Origin: Glutinoglossum americanum | Taxonomy: Eukaryota; Ascomycota; Geoglossomycetes; Geoglossales; Geoglossaceae | Direction: 5' to 3' | DNA: 64,000 bases | Assembly (NCBI GenBank): GCA_020080175.1 | Contig: JAGHQL010000001.1 | Span: 62,001-126,000 of the forward strand | The notes under the pieces: generated by a model | What the model saw: the letters and a program-made list of their open reading frames with translations, nothing else | Database searches by the model: none | Told to the model about the DNA's origin: nothing | In this document: one piece after another, positions 40,115-58,544 of the stretch | Layout: each line of letters begins with the position of its first letter | Numbering within the stretch: position 1 is the stretch's first letter | Translations under genes and position numbers: made by a program

Positions 40115-42016
40115 CGCGGCGGGTATTTCATACCACCCGCTCTGGAATGAGTATTGGGGGACAATAAACGCTGAATGTCGTTGTAGGTTTAGCCCTGAAA
40201 ATGTCCGCTTATGATTGGCTTAAGGCATATGTACGGCAGAAATTTTCGGTTCACCACAAATTCTTGTAGTTCCCACTTCGTATCTTCAGAGTCAAGATTC
40301 TTCCGATTCATCTTTAATTACTTGTCCGTCAATCCCAAGATCTAGGCCTCAATGTTTCGGTACGTCGAGAGCTCCATTTCGCAAATCGCATTGCCTCCGT
40401 ATCATATGAGGAAACTCTTTCACACAAAGTTCAGGAGATTTTTCCATGAGCCATAGAACAACATGCACTACCATCTGATCAACTCATATCTCAGTTTCTT
40501 TTTCAGGCTTCATCTATTAGCTTATCTAACTAACTATTGGTCCGAGCAAGCGCAGTCGCTCCAGAAAAGACCGACATATTTCTGATGAATGTAAGTCCTC
40601 TTCGGAGTCTTCTCATCAACTTACGTTCACAATTTCCATGTGATGAAAAAAGTATAATCAGTTCTGCTGCTGAAGAACATTGATGATATCCAATTACCAA
40701 ACTTACCAATTTTCTGATCTCTTTGCGTTCTATCTTGTTTCACATCATACCCTCCAGCTGAGGAGTTGTATCTAACAACAATTAGGAAAAACCCAAGCGA
40801 CGACAATACCACTTCTACTCTATTGTTTTACTCTGATCACCGGGATCCAATGCTATCGTGGCACTTAAGGTACCCTATCTCCTGCGATCGAATTTTCCTC
40901 GCGCTACGATGACAACAGTCAATCCATTCAACGAATCCCTACCTACCAAACCACCCTCCCACACCCGACCAGTCATTTAGACTTGGGATGACTGTTGTGG
41001 AGTTGCTGCCCTCTTTGATATCCTTCGGATATGGAGTGGTGTGCGTGTAATGTGGCTTTAGAGCTCGACACTCTTTCAGCTCGTCTTGGGCAGCTAGCGT
41101 TGAAGGCCGGTAGAGGGACTGAGTAAACTGGCTTTCCTGAGCGCTCATCCCGCAATCCTCCAGCATATTATTTTGGCGATGCTTGCTCCCAATGCTGACG
41201 GCCAATCTAGAAGTATTCATGTCAGCCTGATTGGGTTGCTCTTACCGACTGATCTTCACCCCCAAAGCAAAATGTCTGTGTGTAATGACAATATGCTAAC
41301 TATGTGCCGCTCACGGAGTCCATACGGCTCAGCTAGTTTGGTTAAGATTGAGAGCTTATTTGTATTTAATCAACTAAATGTTGAACACAAACATTCTTTC
41401 AGATCTGAAGAACTTGATGCCGTGTTTCGGAATGCTGGGGTCAGTCGGAGGGTGTCTCCAGACTAAATAATCTGCATATGGCGGCAGGGCGTACGCCTCA
41501 AATTTAAATTACTTTTGCAGCTTGAATCGCCTATTTCTTGGCTTGGCGATCTATGTATCAGGTTCCAAAATAGACTTGCTGCGCACCTTGGGGCTGCCCC
41601 TGTAACGCCTGTGCAACTACAACTTTAGTATAGGGTAGAGACCACGTAGGAATTCCCACCGTGCAACAAAGAGTCCCGAGTCCTTGGGTTTGAAACCGTC
41701 TCTCCCTCTCATGCTCTCCTTCACTTCGCAGTATTAATCAGTTCCTGCAAGGAGACATATCTTGTAGGTCCATAACGATCTTCGCTAATTCCCTATCACG
41801 TTAAACTTTTTCGGGTCATTCATTTCCAGCTCGGCGCTCAGGGGATTGATACGAATTCCAACACAACGCCGGAACCTTTTCAACTTCTCGAATTACACTT
41901 GGATAACAGGGACCGCCGATCGAAAATAACTAACGACGGTAGTCTACTTAGCAGGAGGTGTTCTAGGTGTTCTGGGTTCTCTTTGAAGTTTGCTACCAGC
42001 CTTCACCCATTCTCGC
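40115..42016. other. Long spacer, few or no genes
   Basis: About 1.9 kb with only short frames. A minus-strand frame at 40939-41220 is listed as a weak hypothetical. The last ~200 bases before 42017 are likely the ANP1 5' UTR and promoter. No mobile element ends or RNA genes were seen. Confidence 0.4.
40939..41220 (-). CDS. Weak hypothetical small protein
   Basis: A 93-codon frame starts with a true ATG (MNTSRLAVSIGSKHRQ) and ends WSGVGGWFGR. Composition is polar and plausible, but there is no recognisable motif, no partner exon and no supporting context. It may be chance. Confidence 0.2.
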   Translation of the reverse strand: MNTSRLAVSIGSKHRQNNMLEDCGMSAQESQFTQSLYRPSTLAAQDELKECRALKPHYTHTTPYPKDIKEGSNSTTVIPSLNDWSGVGGWFGR

Positions 42017-52259: not shown

Positions 52260-55049
52260 TTAGTCATCATCCATCATATCGACATCTATCGCATCAGGAT
52301 TCGTGGGTATCGCTTTATCCTCCCTAGAGGTGTTCCCACCCTCCGGCCCAGTACTAGCGGGTACGAACCCCTGAGGCGCTCGTGCTTGACGTTCCAGGGC
52401 TGCCATTGCATCAGCACGTTCGTCCCCTTCACCCTCACGAGAATCACCGTTTCTTGATTCTGATAATTGCTGCTGGCTCCTTGCTATGGCTTGAGACGCA
52501 ATGAAGTGCACATCGGTGCTATCAAGAGATTAGGTGACGTGGCAAATAGAAAGGGGGGGGTCCGTACTTGTATTGTGCTTGCACACTCCTCTTAATCCGG
52601 AGCATCTCCTTGAAGGTATCCTCGTTTCCGTGCTGAACCTCGAAAGACTCCCACTTGGACCAGAACCCAGGACTAGTGCGAGGATCGCAAAACTGCGATG
52701 CATGTCCATATATAGCCCGTGCTCGGTCAATCTCACCCAATCTCCGCTCCATTTCTGCAAATTTCAGGCACATATCCTTAGCTTCGTTATCCGGAAGAGC
52801 CGCGATAGCCCTCTCATAGATAGGTCGAGTTGACGTTAACCCAAAATTCGATGCCGATTTTGTGATGTAAAAGTTGAACATTTCAAATCGATCCTCATCG
52901 GAGACGGCACGAGTTGCCCTTTCGTATATACGCATAGCATGCCTTGCCAAACCCCTTTCTTCCTCAAGGTTTCCATACATGAGATAAAGCACCTTTGCAA
53001 ACTTCGGCGGACATCCTTCCACCGCCTGTTCGAATAGATCCCGTAGCCTTTCTATGCCTATTTTACGATCAACAGCCTTGGTGAGGTAAAGGTTCCAGAG
53101 CTCGAAGGCCACGGGATAATTGAATAGATCGAGGCCTCGTTCGAATACCTGTCGCCAAATTAGTCAGGCGCCGAGGACAGAAACGGCCATACCAACCTTA
53201 AAAGACTCCTCAAAATAGTTGTTTTCCTCGAGCAGATTAGCATAGTTGACAACAGTTTGTGGAGTTGCTATTCTCAATTCAAAGATCCTTTCGTAGACCT
53301 TCTTCGTCTCCTCAAGTGTGCTTACACTTTCCACAAGGTCAACGTAAAAGCTCCAGAGCTTCCAACTCTTGTGTAACCGCTGTTGGGGATTCAGGGTATC
53401 GTCAAAATAGTCCACCGTTGACCGCTTAGGTGCTTGGGTTGCTTTGGCCATAATTTCAACAGCTTTATCAAAGTTTTCGTTTCTCAACTCCATCTCTGCC
53501 CACTCACACCACATCTCCGCAAGTTCAGCGACAGATTTAAAAGGTACTCTCACAGCCTTCTCCATAATGATACGTGCGTTTCGCATATCCCCGCCTTTCT
53601 CGTAAAACTTGGCATAGTTTGCCCATAGCTCATGAAATTTGCCAATTGCTTTCTTCGGTTGGATTGCCGCGATCGCATCCGTGTAAGTTTGAACAACTTC
53701 CCTCATATTATCTCCCCAAAGCGACACACGCTTCTCCCACTCGGTCACATTGTTAGGGTTTTGGCGCAGTAAAACATCATTAACGAGAAATGGTCGGCGG
53801 TCCATAAGCTGCTCGAAACGCATCATACGTATATCTAAGTCAAAGTCTGCGTCCTCGTCCAACACATCCTTGCCGGAACGTGCAGCCGCAGCATCCATCA
53901 AGTTTCCAATAGAGTATTCTTCGGATTCCACGTATGTATCGAAGATAATTGTAAAATCCCGCACCGTCGCTACAGTCGTAATACCCTCTTCAAAGATGTC
54001 CCTTGCCTTTTCGGGTTTACGTTTAGTGAGCCAGTAAGTTCCCAGTTCCGCCCATAGCACCCCTCTTTGATCCGCAAACCTCTCAATTCCACTCCGAATT
54101 ATCCTCTCCACGTCTACTCCAACACCATCTCCAGTCTCAATGTTTGGCGCATGTGTGACCAAAAGCTCCACCATTTCGCTCCAGAGCTGAAAATGACTTT
54201 TTCCTTCCTTACTCCGGAAACGAGGATTATTCAGTATGCCCATATACTGCTCCACTGCTTCCGTGTACCTGCCCATCTCAATCAAAAGCTCGACAAAGTC
54301 CTCCGCGTCTTCGGGGTGAACCTGCATATATCGTCTCCAGATCTTAATGGCAGTGTCACCAGAAGCAGCGTTGGCGAAGGGCCGATACAAAGCCCATATT
54401 CGATTATGTTGCGTGAGTGGTAAAGCCCGAAGGGCCCGGTCAAAAGTACGTCGAGTATGCGTCACAAGCGGTTGCTGTTGGAGAAATGAAAGATACATTT
54501 CCCAGATTCTCGGCATCTTGTTAAGTAAAATCAAAGCCCGTTCGAATAGCGAATTGACCTTACTATACTCCTTGCAGTATATTGCAGGATTTAGCTTTGC
54601 GACGTGTTTAGCCCTGAGATCAAGATACTATATCCAAGGCGTTAGCAACGCACGAGAGTTAAAGTCAAACACAAAGAGCATTACCATCTTCCATAGCTTA
54701 TAGGAACGTGGTAGCTGTGAGCAAGCCCTCTCTAGAACCTAAGGATGTGTCAGATTTGTCACGGCCATGATACAGATAGAACATACAAATGCTTGCTCAT
54801 GGGAGTTGCCGTGCTGCAACTTAAGGTCGATATATGAAAGCCATGGCTTGATACTCCCCGAACCGTCACGGAGTATATCTTGTTCGTAGATCGCATCCTC
54901 GTCAGACTTGACATTCCAGACACTTGTCAGCGCCACAGCCATACCGATAGAAGAATTTCGAAACCACTCACAATCAGATACAGATCAGGCTTCGTCTTGA
55001 TCTGAAGCTGAGAATCCGGCTCCATGGGTTTCAAAAGCTCTCCTGGCAT
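52260..55049 (-). CDS. SYF1: Pre-mRNA splicing factor Syf1 (HAT-repeat, NTC complex)
   Basis: Syf1 is a scaffold of the Prp19-associated (NTC) complex in the spliceosome. Exons 55049-54972, 54906-54787, 54738-54685, 54627-53197, 53148-52568 and 52518-52260 encode 840 aa. The protein is a series of half-a-TPR repeats: DAIYEQDILRDGSGSIKPWL, VLERACSQLPRSYKLWKMYL, TFDRALRALPLTQHNRIWAL, RIWEMYLSFLQQQPLVTHTR, FERGLDLFNYPVAFELWNLY and more, ending in QYNTDVHFIASQAIARSQQQ and an acidic tail (IDVDMMDDD). Exon 3 is a 54-nt unit. It is divergent with VMA8, with 318 bp between start codons. Confidence 0.94.
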
Positions 55050-55367: not shown

Positions 55368-56667
55368 ATGTCTGGAGCAGGGGTACGTTTCGCATGCTGA
55401 ATTGCTTTCGTGCAATAATTATTAACATCCGTTATTCACAAATCCTAGAATCGAGAAACGGTTTTCGCCACTCGACAGACCTTAGGGCTGATGAAGAATA
55501 AGCTCAAGGGCGCAGAGACTGGCCACAGCCTGTTAAAACGAAAAAGCGAAGCTTTAACAAAGTTAGTGACTGAGCAGCTGATATATGGCGATTGCACTAA
55601 TTGTATCCTTTCGTGAAGACGCTTCCGTGGTAAGCAATAAGCGCCACTATTCCTTGAGACTGTGTGTTGATAAGGCTTATAGAGATAACAAGGCGCATTG
55701 ATGAGGCAAAACGTAAGATGGGCCGCGTGATGCAAATCGCTGCATTTTCGCTGGCCGAAGTCACCTACGCTGTTGGCGGAGATATTGGTTATCAGGTCCA
55801 GGAGTCTGCAAAGTCAGCACGTTTTAGGCTACGAACAAAGCAAGAGAACGTATCTGGTGTCTTTCTACCGCAATTCGAAAGCTATACAGAAGAAGGGAAC
55901 AACGATTTCGGGTTGACTGGCCTAGGAAAAGGCGGACAACAGGTTCAGCGGTCCCGGGAGACATACGCAAGAGCAGTAGAGACGCTTGTTGAACTGGCGA
56001 GTCTCCAAGTAAGTTTCCTTAACGGCCCATGAGTAATTTCCATTGCTCAGCGGCACTAACAAACCTCTCATAGACGGCATTTGTAATACTCGACGAGGTC
56101 ATTAAAGTAGTAAATAGAAGAGGCAAGCCTCCCACTAGAACATCACATCAATCTCACATTCGCCCCCGTGCTAATTCTGTCGAGCCTTCTATAGTAAACG
56201 CAATGTTAGTACCCATAGGTGCTACCCCAAACAGATCGACTGACAGCCAAACGTTGGCATTTACAGTGAACATGTCAGTATCACAACTTTTCCTAATGTG
56301 AAAGAGCACGCTAACTATCTATGAAGGTCATAATACCTCGTACAGAGAACACAATCAAATGTAAATTGCAAAGTTCTCAAATCTTTCTTTTGCTAACTTT
56401 TTTCAGACATCAACTCCGAACTAGATGAATTGGACAGAGAAGAGTTCTATCGACTAAAGAAGGTAACTACTAAGCCCCAAAGAGCCGTCCAAAAGTGCTT
56501 TTTTAATTTAATGACTACAGGTTCAAAACAAGAAACAACGAGATGGGGCTGCAGCTGACGCAGAGGCGGCACTTAAGAGAGCTACCCAGAGCCGCGAAAA
56601 TGAAACCGAAGAATCGGGGACTGTTGATATTCTCGGTGACCAGGAAGATGCAGACGTCATATTTTGA
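55368..56667 (+). CDS. VMA8: V-type ATPase V1 subunit D
   Basis: Subunit D forms the central rotor stalk of the V-ATPase. Ten exons: 55368-55382, 55449-55561, 55619-55629, 55683-56008, 56074-56122, 56195-56204, 56267-56273, 56327-56360, 56407-56462 and 56521-56667. They sum to 768 nt (255 aa), the usual family length. The product reads MSGAGNRETVFATRQTLG, KRKSEALTKRFREITRRIDE, MGRVMQIAAFSLAEVTYAVG, ESAKSARFRLRTKQENVSGV, NNDFGLTGLGKGGQQVQRSR, VILDEVIKVVNRRVNAIEHV, IIPRTENTIKYINSELDELD and a coiled-coil C-terminus. Exons of 11, 10 and 7 nt are needed to give the conserved TKRFREI and RRVNAIEHV. The intron 56123-56194 starts with GC. Confidence 0.93.
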
Positions 56668-56938: not shown

Positions 56939-57863
56939 TCATTGCCTCTGGTATGTGACCTTGATAGTCTTATTATCATCACCGAGAGTCATCCCAGCCG
57001 TATTTTCCTTCGCGCTTATGGCTCCCGTTTCTGTCTCGTACTCGACGAATGCAATGCCCTTACGCCCTGGGACCAACCGGACCTCCTTGAAGCCTTCAAA
57101 TCTTCCGAAAATCGCTGTAAGGCCTTCTACATCATAGTCCTCAGGCAGGTTTTGAACAAAAAGAATTTTGTTCGGGGGTAGATATTCATCAGGGACGACA
57201 GCAGCGGCTGTGGGATTTGAGGATTTGAGGCCAGCACCTCTAGATGCTTTCGTGGCACGAGTTGAAGAACTTTCTGGAGGTGGTCGTTTGAGCTTCTTCT
57301 GCGCCTCAAGTGCTTCAAGTGCTTGTTTTCGCTCTATTTCATGTAAGCTTCCCGCTCCTATACCCATTAATTCCCGAGCATACCCTTCTCAGCCAGCCTT
57401 CGTCTCTTATGAGCCTCAAACTCCTCGTCATTTCCTTGCAGCTTTACAACCGCGTCGCTTCGAGACCGAGCAAAGTCAAGCACCATCGGTTTGTCGAACA
57501 ACTCAAAGCCCTGAACTTCCTTAATTGCCGTCTCCGCGGCCTCTATGCTGTCAAAGACGATAAATGCTTGACCCTTGGCCTTTAGATTGCGCTTCGCGAC
57601 CAGATCAATAACATGTCCATACTCAGAAAATATTCCCAAAAGCGCCTCCCTGAGCTGATCAATCGGAATTCGTTCCTCAAGATTACGGACCTAGCACAAG
57701 GTCAGCGATGTCTATTACGATCGGTGGACGGTAATATACATAGACCCTAATCGTCTATCAGCAGGGACTAGCATACGGAGCACGCAAATGCAAAAGTAAT
57801 GAATTGGATTACATACGTCGAGTTCGGTGGAGATCCACCTGTAGATAGCTGTGCTGCAGCCAT
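56939..57863 (-). CDS. U1A/U2B''-type snRNP protein with two RRMs
   Basis: This family binds stem-loops of U1 or U2 snRNA. Exons 57863-57817, 57746-57740, 57690-57384 and 57333-56939 encode 251 aa. RRM1 has RNP2 as VYVRNL and RNP1-like GQAFIVFD, followed by LFDKPMVLDFARSRSDAVVK. A charged linker (RKQALEALEAQKKLKRPPPE) leads to RRM2 with LFVQNLPEDYD and KGIAFVEYETE, ending TIKVTYQRQ. The 7-nt exon 57746-57740 supplies the V-Y of RNP2; skipping it with the nearby GTAATC donor would give a one-residue-shorter NSTYVRNL. Whether it is U1A or U2B'' (or serves both, as in Drosophila SNF) cannot be told from sequence. Confidence 0.9.
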
Positions 57864-58544
57864 AATCAGATGCGAATGATCATCATCAAGTATTTGCGAA
57901 GGAAGGCTGGAGATGATGTCGTGCCTGACGCGACCCGCTGCTTTTAGGGATGTTTATGTTTGGTGAGCGAAGCAAGCATTACCCAATAAAAAGTTTTTTG
58001 CTAGACAGTCAAAAGTCATTACACACCTTATAAAAGAATATACATACTACTAGTACTAACAAAAGAATAGGGTATAAATTCATTAGTACTCAAATATAAG
58101 TATAAGTTTTTATATTTCCTTTTTAATATGATAATATAAATATCATAAAAGGGAAAAAAAATTTTAAGTGGTTATATTAAAAATTTAATATATTAATAAA
58201 ATATTATTTTATCATAATATTATAGAATTATCAATAATACTTTCTTCTTTCACATTATTATACTTCTTTAAACTACTAAACGGCAAATTGGCTGCCGTTT
58301 TGAAAGGGGTTGGGTCGCCGTTTTTCGCAGTCAACTTGCGCCCAATTCCCGTTTGTGACTTGAGTCAAAATAAACTCTCACCCCCCTCCTATCTCGCGAT
58401 GACAGCCGTCACATTTTCTTGCCCATCCTACTCCCTTCCTCCTCCTCCTCCTCCTCCTCCTCCTCCTCCACTTCAAACGCCTAAGGATCATTTCCCTTCC
58501 CTTTGGCTCTAAACAGCACCTCACAGGCTGTAACTCCTCTTCTT
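57864..58544. other. AT-rich island plus promoter of the snRNP gene
   Basis: From about 58010 to 58265 the sequence is strongly AT-rich (runs of ata/tat/aaa) and has no coding frame, in contrast with both flanks. It resembles a decayed (possibly RIP-mutated) insertion or an AT-rich isochore fragment. Confidence 0.45.
58439..58470 (+). repeat. (CTC)n microsatellite
   Basis: About ten perfect trinucleotide units (cctcctcct...) lie immediately 3' of the CFEM gene's stop, on its downstream side. Confidence 0.9.

Follow-up and report, generated by a model that had tools for sequence, protein, structure and literature searches.

An intron-rich VMA8 gene of a filamentous ascomycete with predicted exons of 11, 10 and 7 nucleotides

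Exons of a few nucleotides have been described in both fungi and plants. The Fusarium CYP621A P450 genes carry an exon of 1 nt that is supported by RNA reads and conserved in 20 orthologues (PMC12940212), and the P450 genes of Phanerochaete chrysosporium contain microexons of 2-10 codons (PMC1184071), with exons of 6-8 nt also reported (PMC1184071; PMC12940212). For plant microexons, the flanking introns are reported to be removed one by one and not together (PMC8831610).

The locus described here, to judge from its sequence, is an intact, intron-rich VMA8 gene of a filamentous ascomycete, a reading to which we assign a probability of about 0.9, and its nine short spliceosomal introns are crowded so as to leave predicted exons of 11, 10 and 7 nt. 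It resembles Fusarium CYP621A in its origin in a filamentous ascomycete, in the position of a tiny exon within a conserved motif and between short introns, and in the dependence of the reading frame on the microexon; it differs in that CYP621A has a single 1-nt exon backed by RNA and orthologues, whereas for VMA8 three are predicted from the sequence, in a housekeeping gene (PMC12940212). The Phanerochaete P450 genes likewise place tiny exons among frequent introns (45-55 nt), some of them in conserved motifs, but they belong to a multigene family of a basidiomycete, come largely from a listing of gene models and were proposed to drive alternative splicing (PMC1184071). The plant microexons of 1-15 nt also lie inside conserved coding motifs, and many are constitutive, but this set is from plants and was found by RNA-seq (PMC8831610). 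The microexon of Trichoderma virens Xlr2, again from a filamentous ascomycete, is a glucose-regulated switch, whereas skipping in VMA8 breaks the frame (PMC11121469). The initial annotation of this DNA had called the VMA8 exons extreme for a fungus, which as far as size is concerned does not hold, since smaller ones have been reported (1 nt in Fusarium, 6-8 nt in Phanerochaete). To our knowledge, however, it is unusual to find three microexons in a single short housekeeping gene, with two of them in direct succession; microexons as such are already known from fungi, and what is notable here is this combination, together with a probable fourth microexon in a neighbouring gene.

The ten-exon VMA8 model occupies positions 55368-56667 on the plus strand of the window (the whole stretch of DNA analysed, 64 kb). 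Its spliced length, recomputed as 768 nt, agrees exactly with the total first proposed, and it translates into 255 amino acids plus a stop codon, without an internal stop. V-ATPase subunit D forms the central stalk of the rotor in the vacuolar proton pump, and the initial assignment of the gene to this subunit was borne out by the match of the predicted product to Pfam PF01813 (ATP-synt_D; 1.2e-68, profile positions 2-196 of 196) and by the alignment of its residues 4-255 with residues 2-256 of yeast Vma8 (3j9t_M; E 5.5e-110). Mammalian D subunits matched at E ~1e-67, and the conserved helices are intact. Searches of prokaryote, virus and plasmid collections for other fungal VMA8 loci found none: the plasmid search returned bacterial V-type D subunits only, and the viral and genome contigs of the same collections gave zero matches. 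Nor did a search of the literature turn up any account of how fungal genes for V-ATPase subunit D are structured.

The spliced model begins with exon 1 (55368-55382, 15 nt of coding sequence, MSGAG), intron 1 (55383-55448, 66 nt, GTACGT...CTAG) and exon 2 (55449-55561, 113 nt), the last of which was aligned with yeast Vma8. Intron 2 (55562-55618, 57 nt, GTTAGT...CTAAT...GAAG) precedes the first microexon, exon 3 (55619-55629, 11 nt, ACGCTTCCGTG), which supplies the end of a K codon, RFR and the first base of an E codon. This is followed by intron 3 (55630-55682, 53 nt, GTAAGC...TTGAT...ATAG), exon 4 (55683-56008, 326 nt), intron 4 (56009-56073, 65 nt, GTAAGT...CTAAC...ATAG) and exon 5 (56074-56122, 49 nt, 3' end VNRR/G). 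Intron 5 (56123-56194, 72 nt, GCAAGC...CTAAT...ATAG) is a GC-AG intron whose length is a multiple of three and which has no in-frame stop. The two consecutive microexons, exon 6 (56195-56204, 10 nt, TAAACGCAAT, V N A I) and exon 7 (56267-56273, 7 nt, TGAACAT, the end of I, then E H), are separated by intron 6 (56205-56266, 62 nt, GTTAGT...CTGAC...ACAG). The remainder consists of intron 7 (56274-56326, 53 nt, GTCAGT...CTAAC...GAAG), exon 8 (56327-56360, 34 nt), intron 8 (56361-56406, 46 nt, GTAAAT...CTAAC...TCAG), exon 9 (56407-56462, 56 nt), intron 9 (56463-56520, 58 nt, GTAACT...TTAAT...ACAG) and exon 10 (56521-56667, 147 nt), which encodes the C-terminal DADVIF and the stop. On rechecking, all the coordinates, sequences, AG/GT borders and phases originally given for the three microexons proved correct. 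The residues that these exons encode are identical in yeast and mammalian D subunits (RFR; VNAIEH): RFR sits in TKRFREIT, the yeast counterpart of which is TKRFRDIT, and VNAIEH lies in NRRVNAIEHVIIPR, which is found in yeast Vma8 and, along with RFR, in mammalian D.

The five introns that flank the microexons (57, 53, 72, 62 and 53 nt) each possess a GT or GC donor, a YTRAY motif, 12-23 nt from the 3' end, and an AG acceptor. On a simple donor/branch/acceptor score they reach 9-12, against 9-13 for the other four introns of the gene, and they look like other candidate introns across the window. Introns 2 and 7 have an AAG acceptor in place of YAG, the branch site of intron 3 (TTGAT) is weak, and intron 5 begins with GC and not GT, a detail absent from the initial annotation. 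In Fusarium core genes, RAG acceptors (~5.7%) and TTRAY branch sites (~4-5%) are both minority classes, and the branch sites and YAG/RAG acceptor classes of VMA8 agree with that tabulation (PMC5677156). Pairwise comparison of the introns of the gene, as a search for an introner-like origin, revealed no clear similarity (best of 36 pairs, z 2.3), which, within the gene, rules out that they are copies of one element.

We enumerated all GT/GC-AG splice patterns, within set size limits, through the two gaps that contain the microexons. Gap 1, the region of the 11-nt exon, allowed 666 patterns, seven of which were in frame, free of stops and of family length; gap 2, the region of the 10- and 7-nt exons, allowed 2,455, with four of family length. 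The microexon model had a family-match score of 199 in gap 1 and 215 in gap 2, compared with 161 and 133 for the best competitors of the same length, both of which depend on poor GC donors. When the intervening DNA was shuffled 300,000 times with dinucleotide composition preserved, gap 1 yielded no 11-nt exon that lies between AG and GT and encodes the family residues (0/300,000), the 10-nt and 7-nt patterns arose 23 and 248 times in gap 2, and the 10+7 pair in the right order arose in 0/300,000; these patterns required the family residues in the phases of this gene, so that true chance rates are somewhat higher, by an amount from alternative phasings that is too small to matter. Because the counts are so low, chance is a poor explanation of the VMA8 microexons. 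Each of the three patterns occurs once on the two strands of the 64-kb window, at the reported site. A lenient scan for microexons of 1-15 nt by splice signals only gave 83 candidates on the plus and 44 on the minus strand; with so many arising by chance, the case for the microexons rests on the coding evidence.

The main rival for exon 6, which we nevertheless judge unlikely because the compared homologues are without any such insertion, is that the segment 56123-56194, our intron 5, is no intron at all or that it often stays in the transcript. In that case exon 5 would run from 56074 to 56204 (131 nt), the real microexons would be only those of 11 and 7 nt, and the transcript would encode an open product of 279 residues, an outcome that the initial annotation did not consider, with a 24-residue insertion, GKPPTRTSHQSHIRPRANSVEPSI, between NRR and VNAIEH. 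Such a reading draws on the GC start of the segment, its length of 72 nt and its lack of an in-frame stop, and among the nine possible retention events it is the sole one to leave an open product, retention of any of the other eight introns leading to an early stop. However, a stop-free segment of 72 nt is not unusual by chance (~(61/64)^24 = 0.3), the insertion is absent from yeast and the compared mammalian D subunits, in which NRRVNAIEHVIIPR is continuous and identical, and intron 5 has a complete anatomy, with donor GAG/GCAAGC, branch site CTAAT 20 nt from its end and acceptor TATAG. For the 11-nt exon, the corresponding proposal is a single intron of 113 nt (55562-55674, acceptor TAAG) that shares the good donor GTTAGT, stays in frame and stop-free and connects exon 2 with GCTTATAGAG..., so that TKLIEIT stands for TKRFREIT. 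This would replace the invariant RFR with LI, shorten a conserved helix by one residue and make a coincidence of an RFR-coding 11-nt exon with the right phases and good sites, something that shuffling never produced, and we regard it as extremely improbable.

The remaining alternatives accept the exons and concern their use. A second VMA8 may lie outside the sequence analysed, which leaves room for the idea that the present copy has decayed or is silent while an intact one works elsewhere. We nevertheless consider this very unlikely: the frame is open through all 255 codons, conserved residues have survived from end to end and every one of the nine introns retains usable splice sites, whereas a neutral copy so rich in introns should lose its frame quickly. 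We give equally little credence to the idea that the microexons are regulated switches, in the manner of neuronal microexons or of Xlr2, even though switch-like microexons do exist, as in T. virens (PMC11121469). Skipping of exon 3, 6, 7 or 6+7 would give truncated products of 48, 175, 176 or 189 residues, so that inclusion and exclusion do not both keep the frame or give a functional product, and since the encoded residues belong to the invariant core, a skipped form could only be non-functional or a product destined for decay. The three predicted exons are instead internal, no longer than 15 nt, flanked on both sides by U2-type introns and needed for both frame and motif, in line with constitutive microexons. 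Because 11, 10 and 7 nt are not multiples of three and skipping breaks the frame, the VMA8 microexons should be constitutive and not alternative-splicing switches.

The other genes of the window, which include SYF1 on the opposite strand, a ubiquitin-activating enzyme, SUV3 and Anp1, mark it as part of a fungal chromosome. The splicing-factor gene SYF1 (approximately 52522-55030, minus strand) lies next to VMA8 in divergent orientation, and a fragment of it had its best PDB match in 9l5r_I (6e-260); from this match, a Myb_DNA-bind_8 hit and the intron signals we infer that the source is a filamentous ascomycete. Spliceosomal genes flank VMA8 on both sides, the second being a U2B''-like gene. 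The sole Rfam match in the window is a C/D-box snoRNA, snR61/Z1/Z11 (40635-40720, plus strand), unrelated to VMA8, and no tRNA genes were found in the window.

That second neighbour, a U1A/U2B''-like (MSL1-type) RRM gene that runs on the minus strand from 57863 down to about 56950, probably carries a 7-nt microexon of its own. The candidate, GGTCTAT (57740-57746, minus strand; the end of T, then V, Y), has introns of 70 nt and 49 nt on its two sides and restores T-V-Y-V-R-N-L, where homologues have T-I-Y (motif T-[IV]-Y). The same pattern appeared in 211 of 100,000 shuffles, which makes its support weaker than that of the VMA8 microexons; a rival model with one intron depends on a poor donor, GTAATC, and gives a protein shorter by one residue. 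The DNA upstream of this gene is strongly AT-rich at 58040-58290, and a GGA repeat tract lies near 58430-58470. In VMA8, exons 6 and 7 leave just 17 nt of exon among three introns, and the U1A/U2B''-like gene is ~1.1 kb away. Constitutive microexons may be unusually numerous in the housekeeping genes of this fungus, a tentative proposition that we place somewhat below even odds.

The initial annotation held that exons of this size challenge ideas of exon definition. This argument fails, as the introns concerned are 53-72 nt long and each has a branch motif, and for small introns intron definition, with recognition across the intron, is thought to prevail (PMC8624252), so that exon size would not be the recognised unit. 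For each intron beside a microexon, recognition across the intron may thus rely on the donor, branch site and acceptor of that intron itself. Around a microexon the introns would then be removed sequentially, the microexon becoming part of a larger exon after the first removal; such stepwise removal is probable because a 7-nt exon can hardly seat the complexes of both neighbouring introns. The arrangement most likely originated through independent intron insertions at nearby sites in a conserved coding stretch that was ancestrally continuous.

The claim that standard gene finders would miss such exons is fair in the sense that they could, the published CYP621A gene models of Fusarium having been wrong at the microexon motif (PMC12940212). 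The GC donor of intron 5 adds to this risk, since Augustus is reported to be blind to GC-AG introns (PMC5677156). Automatic models of conserved fungal genes may therefore drop or shift residues at a missed microexon, a danger compounded here by the GC donor. If the high microexon load is true, splicing would have to be ordered, the exons being too small for both splicing complexes together. With three introns that must be removed in some order and exons of just 10 and 7 nt between them, VMA8 is a small and tractable system in which to test the pairing of short fungal introns.
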